The notes: generated by a model not told the origin, from the letters alone. 62,810 nt of DNA from Candidatus Dormiibacterota bacterium (GCA_035635555.1 DASQAT010000044.1:1-62810); one strand, 5' to 3'. Counted from the first letter of the stretch, positions 52,822 to 62,318 are shown. Program-made: numbers and translations.

Positions 52822-53646
52822 CTAGCCCCAGGTGCTGATGTCGTGAATGAGGCCCATCGAGAGCAGGCGGACGTACAGGTCGGAGAACGCGACCCAGAAG
52901 AGACTCACCCATGCCCACTGCATGTGATGGGCGTTGAGCGCCGACGCGCCCCGCCAGATCCCGTGGCGCACGGGGCCGCCGCGTTCGCAGGAGAAGCAGT
53001 CGAGCCTCCCCCCCACGAGGTGGCGCCAGGAATGGCATCCAAACGTATAGGCCGCCAGGAGCGTCGGGTTCACGAGCAGGACCACGCTTCCCACCCCGAC
53101 TCCGATCCGCCCGTCGCGGAAGAAGGCCTGGTAGGCGTCGACGTACAGGATGAAGATGAACGCGATGGCGAAATAAAGCGCGTAGCGGTGCAGGTTCTGG
53201 ACCACCAGGAGCCCGGTCTCCCCCCGGTAGCGACCACGCCGGACCGGACCGACGGCGCAGCCCGGGGGCGTTCCGAAGAACGAGCGGTAGTACGCCTTGC
53301 GATAATAGTAGCAGGTGGCCCGGAACGCCCCCGGGAAGATGAGGATCAGGAAGGCGGGGGAGGCGGGAAGGAACGACGGCCACCACCCCGGCCACGCGCC
53401 GAACCAGGCATGCATGAGAGGGGCGGAGCCGGGGGCGGCCGGATCGATGAACAGCGGGGGTGAATAGAACGGCGAGATATACGAAGCGTACGAGTAATAC
53501 GACCCCTGGAACGCGGCCCACGTCGCATACACCGCGAAGCCGCCCAGGCCGAGGATCGTCAGGAGCGGTCCGACCCAGAAGCGATCCGTGCGCGCCGTCT
53601 GCGCGAATCCGACGAGGTGACCGCCGGCGCGCGCTGCCTCTGCCAT
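52822..53646 (-). CDS. sdhC: Membrane anchor subunit of succinate dehydrogenase, unusual type
   Basis: 274 residues with five predicted helices: FWVGPLLTILGLGGFAVYATW, PAFLILIFPGAFRATCYYY, HRYALYFAIAFIFILYV, SVVLLVNPTLLAAYTFGCHSW and WVSLFWVAFSDLYVRLL. This single large subunit replaces the usual small SdhC/SdhD. A Tyr/Ser/Pro-rich loop (GSYYSYASYISPFYSPPLF) lies on one face between helices 1 and 2. His residues in NLHRYALYF and GCHSWRH are candidate heme ligands. A Cys pair (CFSCERGG) sits in a loop. ATG 53646 has GGAGGA upstream. Confidence 0.85.
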   Translation of the reverse strand: MAEAARAGGHLVGFAQTARTDRFWVGPLLTILGLGGFAVYATWAAFQGSYYSYASYISPFYSPPLFIDPAAPGSAPLMHAWFGAWPGWWPSFLPASPAFLILIFPGAFRATCYYYRKAYYRSFFGTPPGCAVGPVRRGRYRGETGLLVVQNLHRYALYFAIAFIFILYVDAYQAFFRDGRIGVGVGSVVLLVNPTLLAAYTFGCHSWRHLVGGRLDCFSCERGGPVRHGIWRGASALNAHHMQWAWVSLFWVAFSDLYVRLLSMGLIHDISTWG

Positions 53647-53695
53647 CCATCTCCTCCGTTCAGGTGCCCTGATGTTCGGCGGGGCGGATTCTATA

Positions 53696-54526
53696 TTAGA
53701 AGCGCCCGGATTCGCGCTCGCGGGCGGGCAGGACCTCCAGGCAGGTGGTCCACCACCCCGTGAGGATTGTCTCCACGAATTCCTCGGGGAGTCCTTCCCC
53801 ACGCATGTCGCGCGCCAGTCGTTCGTGGTCGTACACGACCGGGACGAACTCGACGCCCAGGGGACCCGACCGGCCGGTCGCTCCGGTGCGGGCCGCCGTC
53901 AGGAGGGTGTACCAGACGTGCGTCGCCCCGTCGTTGGCCGGCCGTCCCAGAGCGCCGACGTTGATCACCTGCCCACCCCCGGGCAGGGTCCGGCTCCAAT
54001 GCAGCCCGGTGTGCGTGCACAGAATGACGTCCGCCCCGTGATCGCGAAGCAGCTTCTCGAGAAACGGCACGGGGGACGTCGACTGCCACAGAAATTCGTT
54101 CTGGCGGCGGGGCGACCCGTGGCACAGCAGCACTCTGCGACCGCCCATCTCGATCCGGTGGGTGGGCGGGAGCTCCCGGTACCATTCCTTGAACGCGCGC
54201 GGCGTGTTCGCCCGGGTATAGTCGTAGGCGATCTGGGCGAACCGGTTGTCGCGCGGGTCCGTGTACCCGCACTGACAATCGTCTCTGTCATGGCCGACGG
54301 ACTCCTCGTAATTTCCCTGGATCACCGTCACGCCGTGCTCCCGGAGAAGGGCCGGGACCCTCTCCGGATGCGGACCGAATCCTCCCAGATCGCCGAGACA
54401 GAAGAGGACCTCGGCACCGCGGTGACGCGCGTCCTGTATCGCCGCCTCGAGCGCCGGGGAGTTGTTGTAGACGCCCCCGAAAAAGGCCGCCCTGTCCGGG
54501 AACGAGGTCAGGCCGGACTGAGTCAT
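53696..54526 (-). CDS. Metallophosphoesterase-fold protein with altered metal motif I
   Basis: 276 residues of the calcineurin-like YfcE/DUF2437 style. Motif II is LFCLGDLGGFGPHPE, motif III is QGNYEESVGHD (usually GNHD), then LLCHGSPR and CTHTGLHW (usually GHTH). The first motif, normally D-x-H-G-N, reads FFGGVYNNSPALEAA, so both metal ligands of that motif are lost. An extra Cys pair (CQCGY) is present. The protein may bind one metal or act on a special substrate. ATG 54526 overlaps the radical SAM stop as ATGA. Confidence 0.82.
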   Translation of the reverse strand: MTQSGLTSFPDRAAFFGGVYNNSPALEAAIQDARHRGAEVLFCLGDLGGFGPHPERVPALLREHGVTVIQGNYEESVGHDRDDCQCGYTDPRDNRFAQIAYDYTRANTPRAFKEWYRELPPTHRIEMGGRRVLLCHGSPRRQNEFLWQSTSPVPFLEKLLRDHGADVILCTHTGLHWSRTLPGGGQVINVGALGRPANDGATHVWYTLLTAARTGATGRSGPLGVEFVPVVYDHERLARDMRGEGLPEEFVETILTGWWTTCLEVLPARERESGRF

Positions 54527-55416
54527 GTGCGACAGGTGACGCCCGTGAGGTAGCAGGTGTGGCAGGCGCCGTGCGTGAGCGGGAAGGGCCGGATCGCTTC
54601 GCGCAAGCCGGCACCGAGGCGGGCGCCGGGTTCCTCGACCAGGATCGGGCAGACGTAGACTCCACGCGTCGTCACCGCCCTCCCCGTGCTGCATTGCAGG
54701 GCCTCCAGACCCTCGCGTGTCACAGTGTCCGGCGACAGACGCTCCCACATCTCGTAGCCTCGCGCTCTCGCGGCCTCGGCGCCGATCCGCCAGAGCGGCA
54801 GCACCTTGACACGGGGCCGCGCCAGACCCAGAGAACGCAACAGCTCCAGCATCCGCGCCCGGCCCTCACCCCCTCCGACGCCGACGGCCGCCTCGGTGAC
54901 CGTCACGACCGGAAGGAAACGGTGCGCGGCCAGAGTCTGGATCCCCTGGACGGCCCTCCTGAACGTCCCGGAGCCGCGGATCCGGTCGTGATCCTCGGGG
55001 CCCCACCCGTCCAGGCTCACCCTGACGTCGAGCGAGTATTCCGAAGCGTCGGCGATCGCTCGCAGAGCCCGGCAGGTGCTCGCATCGAGAAACAGCCCGT
55101 TGGTCAGCACGTTCGCCGGCCCCTGGCGCAGCGTCGCCTCGAGGATGGGCAGGAGCTCGCGATTCATGAACGGCTCCCCTCCCGTGAGGTAGTACTCGCG
55201 GACGCCGAGCGCTCTGGCATCGTCCAGGTGCCGGCGAGTCTCCTCGACCGTCATCATGCCGTGGCTGTGATTGTCGGGGGCGCAGGAGATGAAGCAATGC
55301 GTGCAGCGCAGGTTGCAGATCGTGCCGGCCACATAGAGCCAGAGCGTGTCCAGGGCGAGCATCGGGGCGTGCGGGTGGGAGGGAACGCCCCCGTCCGGGA
55401 CGGGCGCCCCGTTCAC
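54523..55416 (-). CDS. Radical SAM protein with C-terminal SPASM-like cysteines
   Basis: 297 residues. The cluster motif is C-x3-C-x2-C in TICNLRCTHCFISC, followed by YYLTGGEPFMNRELLP and VRVSLDGWGPEDHDRIRG. The C-terminal 75 residues hold extra cysteines (LQCSTGRAV, GVYVCPIL, ACHTCYLTGVTC) arranged like a SPASM/twitch auxiliary cluster site. Such enzymes often modify peptides or proteins, or make cofactors. GTG 55416 overlaps the preceding stop as GTGA; ATG 55362 is an alternative. No precursor peptide gene is seen beside it. Confidence 0.9.
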   Translation of the reverse strand: MNGAPVPDGGVPSHPHAPMLALDTLWLYVAGTICNLRCTHCFISCAPDNHSHGMMTVEETRRHLDDARALGVREYYLTGGEPFMNRELLPILEATLRQGPANVLTNGLFLDASTCRALRAIADASEYSLDVRVSLDGWGPEDHDRIRGSGTFRRAVQGIQTLAAHRFLPVVTVTEAAVGVGGGEGRARMLELLRSLGLARPRVKVLPLWRIGAEAARARGYEMWERLSPDTVTREGLEALQCSTGRAVTTRGVYVCPILVEEPGARLGAGLREAIRPFPLTHGACHTCYLTGVTCRT

Positions 55417-56738
55417 GCTCGCGTCTCCGGGAGGTGGCCCGAATTCCGCGGCCCGGTCGCCGAAACGCCGGAGCTGCCCGTCCGACGCCTCCCGGGCGAC
55501 GGGACGGCGTCCTGCAGGGGGCGCGCTCCACGGGCAAGGCCCGCGAACACGGCGTCGACCTGCTCCAGGCCGGCGCGCAGCAGGAAGGTCGCATTCCGAC
55601 CGTAGCTCTTGCTGCCGATGATGTAGAAATCCGGCTCGGGATGGGAGAGCAGGTCGGCGGAAGGCGCGGGCTGCGCCAGGCAGTCGTCCCCCTTCCCCAG
55701 AAGTACGGCCGCGAGCTTGATTGGCCCGCAGGTGGCGTAGCACAGGTGGACCTGGAGCTCGGAGTGGATCGACGAGTCCGGTGTAGACCCGACGTTGGCG
55801 ATGATCCGATCGACGATCTTCCGCCGCCGACGTCCTCCTCCCCGCAGAGACACCTCGAGGCGCCCCCGGTCCCGCCCGCCCTTCACGAGGATCGATTCGA
55901 CCACGCTTCCCGGGCACGCCTCGAATCGCGGGTTGCGCCCCGCGGCCAGCCGGCTTGCCTCGGCGCAAAGGGCTCCGCGCGCGGGCAGGAGCTCGCCGGG
56001 AACACCCGCATACAGCGGACGCCGCGTGCTCCTGAAGACCCAGATGACCCGGGTGCGCGGATGCCGCGCGGCGAGCGCCGACAGGGCGACCGCGGATGTG
56101 GCCGCCGAGTGACCGGCTCCCACAAGGAGAGTCGTCCGGCCGGCGAAAAGGGCGGCGACCCGGGGGCTCGCTAAGTTCGGGATTCCGCGATCGATGAACG
56201 ACGCCGCCTGGCTCTCTCCCGGGACGGGAATGCCGCCGTCGCCCAGCGGTCTCATCTGCCCCCACGTGCCGGAGGCATCGATCACGACGTCCGCCGCGTG
56301 GACCTCCTGTCGTCCTCCTCGCTCGGCGAGAATGCGGAACGGCCGGACGGCGCGCGCGTCGTTGCCGGGCAGGTCCTCTTTGAGAGTCGCGTCGCGGCTG
56401 ATGGCCAGAACCCGGGTGCGCTCCCGCACGGCGCCGCGCAGGGGGCGGCTCTTCGCCAGAGGAAGGAGATAGTCCGCCAGGTATTGGCGCCCGGTCGGGG
56501 CGGTCCCGGCGTCCCGGCATGGCCGCACCCCTTCGCCCCTCAAGACCCGCAGCCCCAGGGAGGAGCAGTTCATCTCCCACGGGGAGAACATTCGAACGTG
56601 ACCCCAGGATCGGAGATTCTCCCCGACCCGTCCCACCTCCAGAACAGCGACTTCGTATCCCAGGTGCGCCCCGAGGAGGGCCGTTTCAAGCCCGATCGGC
56701 CCCGCCCCGACGATGACCAGTCGCATGCCCCGCGGCAT
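55413..56738 (-). CDS. FAD/NAD(P)-binding oxidoreductase
   Basis: 441 residues. Two dinucleotide-binding folds: FAD site LVIVGAGPIGLETALLGAHLG at the start and NAD(P) site TLLVGAGHSAATSAVALSAL near the middle. Segments such as SWGHVRMFSPWEMNCSSLG and DFYIIGSKSYGRNATFLL resemble flavin-monooxygenase/pyridine-nucleotide-disulfide oxidoreductase-like proteins. There is no CxxC redox pair near the FAD. It is the first gene of the three-gene coupled operon. ATG 56738 or 56726 can serve as start. Substrate unknown. Confidence 0.85.
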   Translation of the reverse strand: MPRGMRLVIVGAGPIGLETALLGAHLGYEVAVLEVGRVGENLRSWGHVRMFSPWEMNCSSLGLRVLRGEGVRPCRDAGTAPTGRQYLADYLLPLAKSRPLRGAVRERTRVLAISRDATLKEDLPGNDARAVRPFRILAERGGRQEVHAADVVIDASGTWGQMRPLGDGGIPVPGESQAASFIDRGIPNLASPRVAALFAGRTTLLVGAGHSAATSAVALSALAARHPRTRVIWVFRSTRRPLYAGVPGELLPARGALCAEASRLAAGRNPRFEACPGSVVESILVKGGRDRGRLEVSLRGGGRRRRKIVDRIIANVGSTPDSSIHSELQVHLCYATCGPIKLAAVLLGKGDDCLAQPAPSADLLSHPEPDFYIIGSKSYGRNATFLLRAGLEQVDAVFAGLARGARPLQDAVPSPGRRRTGSSGVSATGPRNSGHLPETRA

Positions 56739-60931: not shown

Positions 60932-61477
60932 CTAGGGCTGAGGATCCGATGGACTCTGCTGCCCCGGAGGTATGACCTGTTTGCAGAACTTGGCGCAGCC
61001 GGAAGCAAAATCACACAGGGCCGGACTCGGGGCACAGCCGAAAGCCGCCTTGCAGCAATCCTGGCAATTGCCGCGGTTCTTGTTGTCCAGGCACTGCGTC
61101 GGGAAATCAGTGTCCGGACTGATGCTGGAAGCGCTGCTGGCGAGACCGACAACTGCCGCGAGCTGGTCCGCCTTCCCCGAGCTGACGGCACTGTCGGGGT
61201 TCGCGGTCGAGACCCGCAGGCCCAGATCCGCGAGGATTCGGGCGGCCGTCCCTTCAGTCAATCTCGCGTTCGCGTCGTCGATCTTCACCCCGAGCGACTT
61301 GAGGGAATCGACGGCGGCGGTCGGCGTGCTCACCGGCTGGCCGATCGCCTTTGTCACCTTCACGGCAAAATCACCCACCGTGACGGTGGATTTTTGGGCG
61401 CTGCTCGCCGCCGCGAACGCGGCCACGGTCACAACGGCACTGACCGTGAGGACCAGCAAGGACTTCCTCATCATCAT
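60932..61477 (-). CDS. Secreted cysteine-rich protein 1 of a tandem paralogue pair
   Basis: 181 residues. Signal peptide MMMRKSLLVLTVSAVVTV with cleavage likely after ASSAQ. The middle is helical (TVGDFAVKVTKAIGQ; ARLTEGTAARILADLGL; SSGKADQLAAVVG). The C-terminal 55 residues are cysteine-rich: C-x8-C-x2-C-C-x5-C-x6-C-x5-C-x3-C, starting CLDNKNRGNCQDCCKAAFGC and ending CAKFCKQVIPP. The even number of cysteines suggests disulfides or a metal site outside the cytoplasm. No known family is recognised. Strong GAGGGGGGAG ribosome site. It is homologous to the next gene. Confidence 0.8.
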   Translation of the reverse strand: MMMRKSLLVLTVSAVVTVAAFAAASSAQKSTVTVGDFAVKVTKAIGQPVSTPTAAVDSLKSLGVKIDDANARLTEGTAARILADLGLRVSTANPDSAVSSGKADQLAAVVGLASSASSISPDTDFPTQCLDNKNRGNCQDCCKAAFGCAPSPALCDFASGCAKFCKQVIPPGQQSPSDPQP

Positions 61478-61582
61478 GTGGGCTCCCCCCTCAGATGGAT
61501 ACTGAGTCGATGTCAATACTTATGCATCACTCCAGGCACGCCTAACCGTCCATGAATGCAGAATTCGCCAAAAGCGCCCCGA

Positions 61583-61737: not shown

Positions 61738-62262
61738 TCAGGGGAGCGGCTCGCTTGCGCTCGGCTTGTTGATCACCATGCAGGCCTTGGCGCAACTACT
61801 CGCCTCCCCACCGAGAGCCTTGCAGCAGTCCATGCACAGACCGTGAGTCTTCTGATCGAAGCATGAGTCCACAGTGTCAGTCGGGTCGGACTTCTCTGTG
61901 GTCGACCCTGTCCTGCTCGCGGGTCTAGCGAGAGCAGAACGGAATTGCAGCACCAGGAGATCGGCCTGATCGCGGGTCAGGAGACGATCGGGGCTGGATG
62001 TCGTCGCCGCGAAGCCGGCGATCTGGAGAATGGCGACAGCGCGCCCCTCCGTGAGAGGCGCATTCCCCCCCATTCCGAGATCCGTGGTGATGAGCCGCCT
62101 CGAAACCTCGCTTGCTCCCGCCATCCGAGCAACGCTCGAGAGATCGCGGGAGAGTTCGCTCGCGGTGACACCCGGACCGGGCCTGGCAGTCGCCGCAAGT
62201 GTCGGCGCCATCGCCGCCCAGGCAATCACGGCCATGAAAATGGAAATCTGCACTTTCTTCAT
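61738..62262 (-). CDS. Secreted cysteine-rich protein 2 of a tandem paralogue pair
   Basis: 174 residues. Signal peptide MKKVQISIFMAVIAWAAMAP, cleavage likely after TLAA. It shares with gene 1 the LTEGRAVAILQIAGF block, a PDRLLTRDQADLLV block and the cysteine tail: CFDQKTHGLCMDCCKALGG followed by C-x3-C (CAKAC). The tail has six cysteines against eight in gene 1. The LTEG/IL/AGF pattern is faintly like S-layer homology repeats but too weak to claim. GGAG lies 6 bases before the ATG. Its own promoter suggests separate control of the two paralogues. Confidence 0.8.
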   Translation of the reverse strand: MKKVQISIFMAVIAWAAMAPTLAATARPGPGVTASELSRDLSSVARMAGASEVSRRLITTDLGMGGNAPLTEGRAVAILQIAGFAATTSSPDRLLTRDQADLLVLQFRSALARPASRTGSTTEKSDPTDTVDSCFDQKTHGLCMDCCKALGGEASSCAKACMVINKPSASEPLP

Positions 62263-62318
62263 CGTCGTCTCCGTCTCTACGCTGGAAGGAACCCAGGACA
62301 CCCTGTGCGGCCACAGAT

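Follow-up and report, generated by a model that had tools for sequence, protein, structure and literature searches.

What process is served by three overlapping genes (hereafter the trio) that encode a FAD/NAD(P)-binding oxidoreductase (the FAD enzyme), a radical SAM protein (rSAM) and a metallophosphoesterase-fold protein (MPE) in the window, the whole 62,810-nucleotide stretch of DNA that was analysed? The original prediction placed these proteins in a modification or cofactor pathway; the existence of a coupled system is supported by the results described below, modification of a peptide or protein is not, and organoarsenical biosynthesis is a more specific reading of the same genes. Arsenosugars and arsenolipids figure prominently among the arsenic compounds of the sea and some soils, and to our knowledge ArsM and ArsS are the only enzymes with a firm assignment in their biosynthesis.

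Gene organization in the window

The trio lies on the minus strand, and its genes overlap by 4 bp each, as GTGA and ATGA, at the places where these overlaps had been predicted:

55413..56738, minus: FAD/NAD(P)-binding oxidoreductase, first gene of the trio, 441 aa (Pfam Pyr_redox_3, 34.8 bits, cut-off 30)
55413..55416, minus: GTGA overlap of the FAD enzyme stop and rSAM start, read from the sequence
54523..55416, minus: radical SAM protein with a C-terminal twitch-like cysteine set, GTG start, 297 aa
55294..55317, minus: CxxxCxxC radical SAM motif (C34, C38, C41), invariant in alignment A2
54532..54693, minus: auxiliary twitch-like cysteines C242, C256, C285, C288 and C295, invariant in A2, with similar spacing in ArsS alignment A3
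54523..54526, minus: ATGA overlap of the rSAM stop and MPE start, read from the sequence
53696..54526, minus: metallophosphoesterase-fold protein, one metal site lost, 276 aa (Metallophos_2)
54461..54478, minus: GGVYNN replacing SDxHGN, so that metal site 1 has neither DxH ligand (alignments)
54305..54316, minus: GNYE replacing GNHD, with the site-2 Asn ligand kept (alignments; SapH has GNWE)

The trio is flanked on its 5' side by a 240-bp intergenic stretch and a divergent gene of RNase E/G type (named from sequence), and on its 3' side by succinate dehydrogenase genes; no arsenic genes adjoin the window's own trio. The genome contains one ArsM above its cut-off and one TIGR04282 protein, both encoded on contigs other than that of the trio, and no ArsS was found in it at a threshold of 1e-20. 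Elsewhere in the window, a membrane-type protein (52822-53802, minus) is encoded in the SdhC place, immediately upstream of the SdhA gene, and matches nothing in Pfam or NCBIfam at E 0.1. There are also two neighbouring, probably secreted proteins (60932-61516 and 61738-62301, minus) that have similar Cys-rich C-termini (CxDCCK..) and no match in Pfam or NCBIfam.

Conservation across bacterial phyla

By scanning genome_contigs with MPE, 460 stretches that encode relatives were found, the best 80 of which (55-79% identity) come from Planctomycetota, Acidobacteriota, Gemmatimonadota, Calditrichota/KSB1, Myxococcota, Methylomirabilota, Rokubacteria and Chloroflexota, as well as from MAGs named Bacteroidetes and Gammaproteobacteria. 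The rSAM gene lies within 8 kb of that for MPE in 82 of 89 loci and the FAD gene in 46 of 89; the rSAM and MPE pairing is kept over about ten phyla, so the predicted co-occurrence and coupling extend beyond close relatives. Identity to the window proteins is ~60% for MPE, ~47% for rSAM and ~43% for the FAD enzyme. Though widespread among environmental bacteria, the trio is patchy in distribution (MPE of the trio type in 11/149 Acidobacteriota and 9/149 Planctomycetota genomes), and a search of plasmids returned only canonical-type MPE paralogues (25-35%).

The original prediction did not recognise the trio as a described system, and we likewise found no matching curated family for the whole system and no account of it in the literature searched. 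A system that combines rSAM, a metallophosphoesterase and arsenic was not found in the open-access literature searched, where TIGR04282 is itself mentioned in only two papers. The trio is apparently previously undescribed.

A phosphoesterase fold that lacks one metal site

MPE is a calcineurin-like phosphoesterase (PF12850, Metallophos_2; 38.9 bits versus a gathering cut-off of 27), and its AlphaFold2 model (mean pLDDT 91.3) is closest to the solved folds of PH1004, 1nnw, SapH and 3rqz (Z 25-27). The uncharacterised Pyrococcus phosphoesterase-fold proteins in PDB entries 1nnw and 2gju, which are the nearest structural relatives of the trio MPE, are also without DxH.

The replacement of D-x-H by GGVYNN that had been noticed in the window holds for the subfamily: the motif is G17-G18-V-Y20-N-N22, in which G17, G18, Y20 and N22 are invariant among the 61 sequences of alignment A1, and the pattern GGxYxN is invariant across the subfamily. 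When MPE is aligned with SapH, LSDIHGN becomes FGGVYNN, GNWE becomes GNYE and GHIH becomes THTG. With ligands assigned to sites as is usual for this phosphoesterase family, the site-1 positions (Asp and His in DxH, and the final His in GHxH) are occupied by G18, Y20 and G174, all of which are invariant, and the site-2 ligands (in GD, GN, H and GH) D46, N72, H136 and H172 are also invariant in A1. The later motifs had been predicted to remain, but the canonical GHxH position reads THTG, with its final His lost; since this residue is missing too, all three site-1 ligands are absent. GNYE does replace GNHD as predicted, but it does not by itself represent a lost metal motif, because the Asn ligand is kept and the active enzyme SapH has GNWE. 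Three cysteines (C84, C86 and C262) are also invariant in A1, and a fourth, C43, nearly so. The existence of 460 relative-encoding stretches, and of a canonical paralogue in the window genome that retains LGDIHGN (and GHTH), argues that the motif pattern is not a chance event. As judged from the alignments, the changes in MPE add up coherently to the loss of one metal site.

The radical SAM protein and the FAD enzyme

rSAM is a member of the radical SAM superfamily (PF04055, 61.6 bits versus a gathering cut-off of 29.5), with a mean pLDDT of 87.7 for its AlphaFold2 model and SkfB, BlsE and SuiB among its nearest folds. It has eight cysteines that are invariant among the 50 sequences of A2, the three of CxxxCxxC plus five C-terminal ones, and the segments C242-x9-G-x3-C256 and CxxCx6C vary hardly at all. 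The predicted SPASM/twitch-like C-terminus was therefore borne out in its extra invariant cysteines but not as a match to the Pfam SPASM model (PF13186), which was absent at E 0.1. All NCBIfam matches listed for rSAM (the best 25 of 69) fall below their own cut-offs; the top one among them is the Rv1681 family (NF049973), yet its score of 106 bits is far below the cut-off of 380, and no ArsL model is among these best 25 of 69. Membership in the ArsS family was rejected by score (50 bits versus 300). A profile-profile comparison with ArsS gave an E of 3.5e-17, which is no sign of special kinship because only the shared core is covered and MoaA (52 bits to rSAM) scores equally. The FAD enzyme, whose family alignment (A4) has 24 members, has a weak similarity to the flavin monooxygenase ArsO (E 1.9e-4).

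Arsenic-type genes near the trio

Arsenic-type partners are found near the trio in 27 of 89 loci. They include ArsM (15 loci), TIGR04282/DUF2064 proteins (14), PiT transporters (6), AhpD-like proteins (5) and MerA-like proteins (4), and more rarely TVP38 (3), MTAP (2), an aquaporin (1) and an ArsC-like protein (1). The corresponding counts in 25 ArsS regions are ArsM 9, AhpD 9, PiT 6, TVP38 6, MerA-like 5 and TIGR04282 3, and 12 regions around a stand-alone TIGR04282 gene contain one ArsM-like match and no other such partners. Genes for ArsM-type methyltransferases adjoin the trio genes or lie between them at L024, L028, L040, L052, L060, L070, L072, L078, L080 and other loci, PiT transporters are encoded nearby at L031, L033, L060 and L072, and the AhpD-like TIGR04169 at L032, L050, L060, L072 and L074. 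In a single-contig genome (L089), the MPE and rSAM genes face those for a transferase, FAD enzyme, ArsM, an aquaporin and PiT; another locus (L129) encodes an ArsC-like arsenate reductase that scores below the model cut-off. In L066, an MTA-phosphorylase-type gene (named from sequence) immediately follows that for MPE, an order that would be expected for the processing of an adenosyl intermediate.

The ArsM proteins beside the trio are closest to NF040538 but score under its cut-off. A relative of NF040538 is present in 20 trio-positive genomes among those searched and is encoded within ~8 kb of MPE in 10 of these 20, where chance would predict <1% per genome. The association of the trio with arsenic is well supported.

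There are also trios without neighbouring arsenic genes, in most Planctomycetota and in the window, and among the top candidates scored arsM was not detected in six trio-positive genomes (G128, G137, G024, G044, G050 and G055) or in the ArsS-positive G019. ArsM was rejected as a discriminating partner, since 94 of 149 genomes carry it; AsSugarArsM (NF038099) exceeds its cut-off in one genome only. The 'arsenosugar' labels of TIGR04282 and TIGR04169 are inferences of their curators.

Some loci contain other genes whose names were read from the sequence, including a sodium-solute symporter upstream of rSAM (L056, L061, L066 and L049) and a GrdB-like protein, TVP38 and a MerA-like reductase after MPE (L056 and L061). 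One ArsM-like gene (G098:C35:25619-26431) contains a single in-frame TGA and possibly encodes a selenoprotein, and single in-frame stops also occur in several further Acidobacteriota arsM genes.

Distribution of the trio relative to ArsS

The occurrence of the trio, ArsS and TIGR04282 was compared in 149 Acidobacteriota and 149 Planctomycetota genomes. The trio is present in 11 Acidobacteriota and ArsS in 22, with no genome containing both, and TIGR04282 accompanies 10/11 trios and 20/22 ArsS (30/33 with either) and is found in 17/116 genomes with neither. In Planctomycetota, the trio is present in 9 genomes, ArsS in 44 and both in 1, and TIGR04282 in 9/9, 40/44, 48/52 with either and 27/97 with neither. 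When the two phyla are pooled, TIGR04282 is found in 78/85 genomes with the trio or ArsS versus 44/213 with neither (Fisher p 4e-16 in Acidobacteriota and 6e-15 in Planctomycetota, values uncorrected for relatedness). Within TIGR04282-positive genomes the trio and ArsS exclude each other (p 0.0025 and 0.010, CMH p 1.5e-4, uncorrected for phylogeny); over all genomes, unconditioned on TIGR04282, exclusion is not significant (p 0.37 and 0.28). Within the window's genus, the trio occurs in two genomes (G000 and G128) and ArsS in one (G019), and 3 of 40 trio-positive genomes that were reached via loci also contain ArsS (L010, L021 and L060).

Some genomes may use another solution. Of 17 Acidobacteriota that contain TIGR04282 but neither the trio nor ArsS, 4 encode a radical SAM-ArsM fusion (L100, L101, L137 and L138), as do two further genomes (L139 and L140). 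Three of the fusions lie on the minus strand:

L100:5472-8000, minus: radical SAM-ArsM fusion
L101:2054-5779, minus: radical SAM-ArsM fusion
L137:3235-5961, minus: radical SAM-ArsM fusion

Some of the fusion genes adjoin those for TIGR04282/DUF2064 or a Pst-type phosphate transporter. The radical SAM halves score 67-133 bits against the trio rSAM profile, versus a median of 46 for ArsS, in loci that were chosen because they hold ArsM; this lends support to radical SAM proteins of the trio kind acting with ArsM. On the other side, the radical SAM half of L100, the one fusion tested, resembles the named Rv1681 family no less closely. The fusions may represent a third way of making organoarsenicals. 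At L098:6878-7999 and L099:11386-12393, in genomes with neither the trio nor ArsS, other radical SAM proteins of an unnamed type are encoded near DUF2064.

Proposed role and alternative explanations

We consider it reasonably probable that the trio forms the core of a route to arsenosugar-type organoarsenicals that does not depend on ArsS. For the substrate, the reaction and the order of steps, we infer a pathway in which arsenate would be taken up by the PiT phosphate transporters of the trio clusters, reduced to arsenite by arsenate reductase and methylated by an ArsM-type enzyme. The rSAM protein would then join a SAM-derived group, by analogy with ArsS most likely 5'-deoxyadenosyl, to trivalent arsenic, and the FAD enzyme may set the arsenic redox state. 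MPE could bind, carry or cleave the arsenical or its adenosyl product, a role suggested by its one metal site, its conserved cysteines and a fold shared with an adenosine-nucleotide hydrolase, and the TIGR04282/DUF2064 transferase and a nucleoside phosphorylase would complete the sugar part. Our confidence in this mechanism is moderate because the window's own trio is without arsenic neighbours, arsM was not detected in some genomes and the family names were inferred by curators.

Among other explanations, one accepts the arsenic link and differs in the product. The trio could yield a different arsenical, such as a 3-amino-3-carboxypropyl or C-glycosyl adduct, or degrade or detoxify methylated arsenicals with an ArsO/ArsH-like FAD enzyme, rather than substitute for ArsS. 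The arsenic neighbours also fit this proposal, and the weak similarity of the FAD enzyme to ArsO, the few genomes with both ArsS and the trio, and the MerA-like, TVP38, GrdB-like and SSS transporter partners at some loci are in its favour. We nevertheless regard it as unlikely, since the TIGR04282 and AhpD partners shared with ArsS, and the exclusion of ArsS within TIGR04282-positive genomes, indicate the same pathway as ArsS. Less likely still is a small-molecule or cofactor pathway connected with phosphorus or selenium, whose transporters and nucleotidyltransferase-like enzymes would be shared with arsenic clusters: PiT transporters, the phosphoesterase fold, DUF2064 and the model names glyco_like_cofC (TIGR04282) and perox_w_seleSAM (TIGR04169) speak for it, but arsenic is indicated by the ArsM-type methyltransferases, by the ArsC-like arsenate reductase and by the exchange with ArsS.

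The least probable explanation, and a quite improbable one, is the originally suggested modification of a peptide or protein (RiPP-like or in protein maturation). It is consistent with SPASM/twitch-type cysteines and with SkfB and SuiB being among the nearest folds of rSAM, but BlsE, a small-molecule enzyme, is about equally near, the overlapping genes leave no intergenic space for a precursor within the trio, Pfam identifies no RRE or other peptide-binding domain in rSAM, and the recurrent partners are TIGR04282 and arsenic genes.

Should the trio stand in for ArsS, surveys based on arsS as a marker overlook producers in several groups, among them Planctomycetota, Acidobacteriota, Gemmatimonadota and Calditrichota. 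More tentatively, with the odds lying slightly against it, the trio could represent a second, hitherto unrecognised way in which enzymes form C-As bonds by radical chemistry, in which rSAM needs a dedicated one-metal pseudo-phosphoesterase (binding an arsenical or adenosyl-arsenical via its invariant cysteines) and a FAD enzyme, and which replaces ArsS over about ten phyla and may yield a new arsenical. If so, the phosphoesterase fold would have a new role, as a cysteine-bearing, one-metal partner to a radical SAM enzyme.

Comparison with known systems

The closest parallel is ArsS (TIGR04167), whose clusters, like those of the trio, contain ArsM, PiT, AhpD-like TIGR04169, TIGR04282, MerA-like and TVP38 proteins and whose C-terminal cysteines follow a similar order (C..C...CxxC..C). 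However, rSAM matches the ArsS model over the core only, at the score given above, and the trio has two extra dedicated proteins, the FAD enzyme and the pseudo-phosphoesterase, neither of which had a match in any of the 25 ArsS regions. ArsS reportedly adenosylates arsenic (PMC12159101, which cites Cheng et al. 2021), and SsArsS acts together with SsArsM (PMC8552651).

In the arsinothricin cluster arsQML, the radical SAM enzyme ArsL, which transfers an aminocarboxypropyl group, makes a C-As bond together with ArsM (PMC8552651). The trio clusters similarly combine a radical SAM protein with an ArsM, which on the trio side is nearest to, and below the cut-off of, NF040538. ArsL is a 428-aa protein with only three conserved cysteines and the permease ArsQ as a partner (PMC8552651), unlike rSAM with its 297 aa, eight invariant cysteines and MPE and FAD enzyme partners.

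For MPE, the asymmetric Ap4A hydrolase SapH, together with 3qfm, 3rqz, 1nnw and 2gju, has a similar fold over the whole length at 22-24% identity, and SapH resembles MPE in the absence of the GNHD histidine. DxH, which MPE has lost, is present in both SapH and 3rqz, and SapH also has GHxH; the trio protein is set apart from SapH by the loss of the three site-1 ligands and by its invariant C84, C86 and C262.
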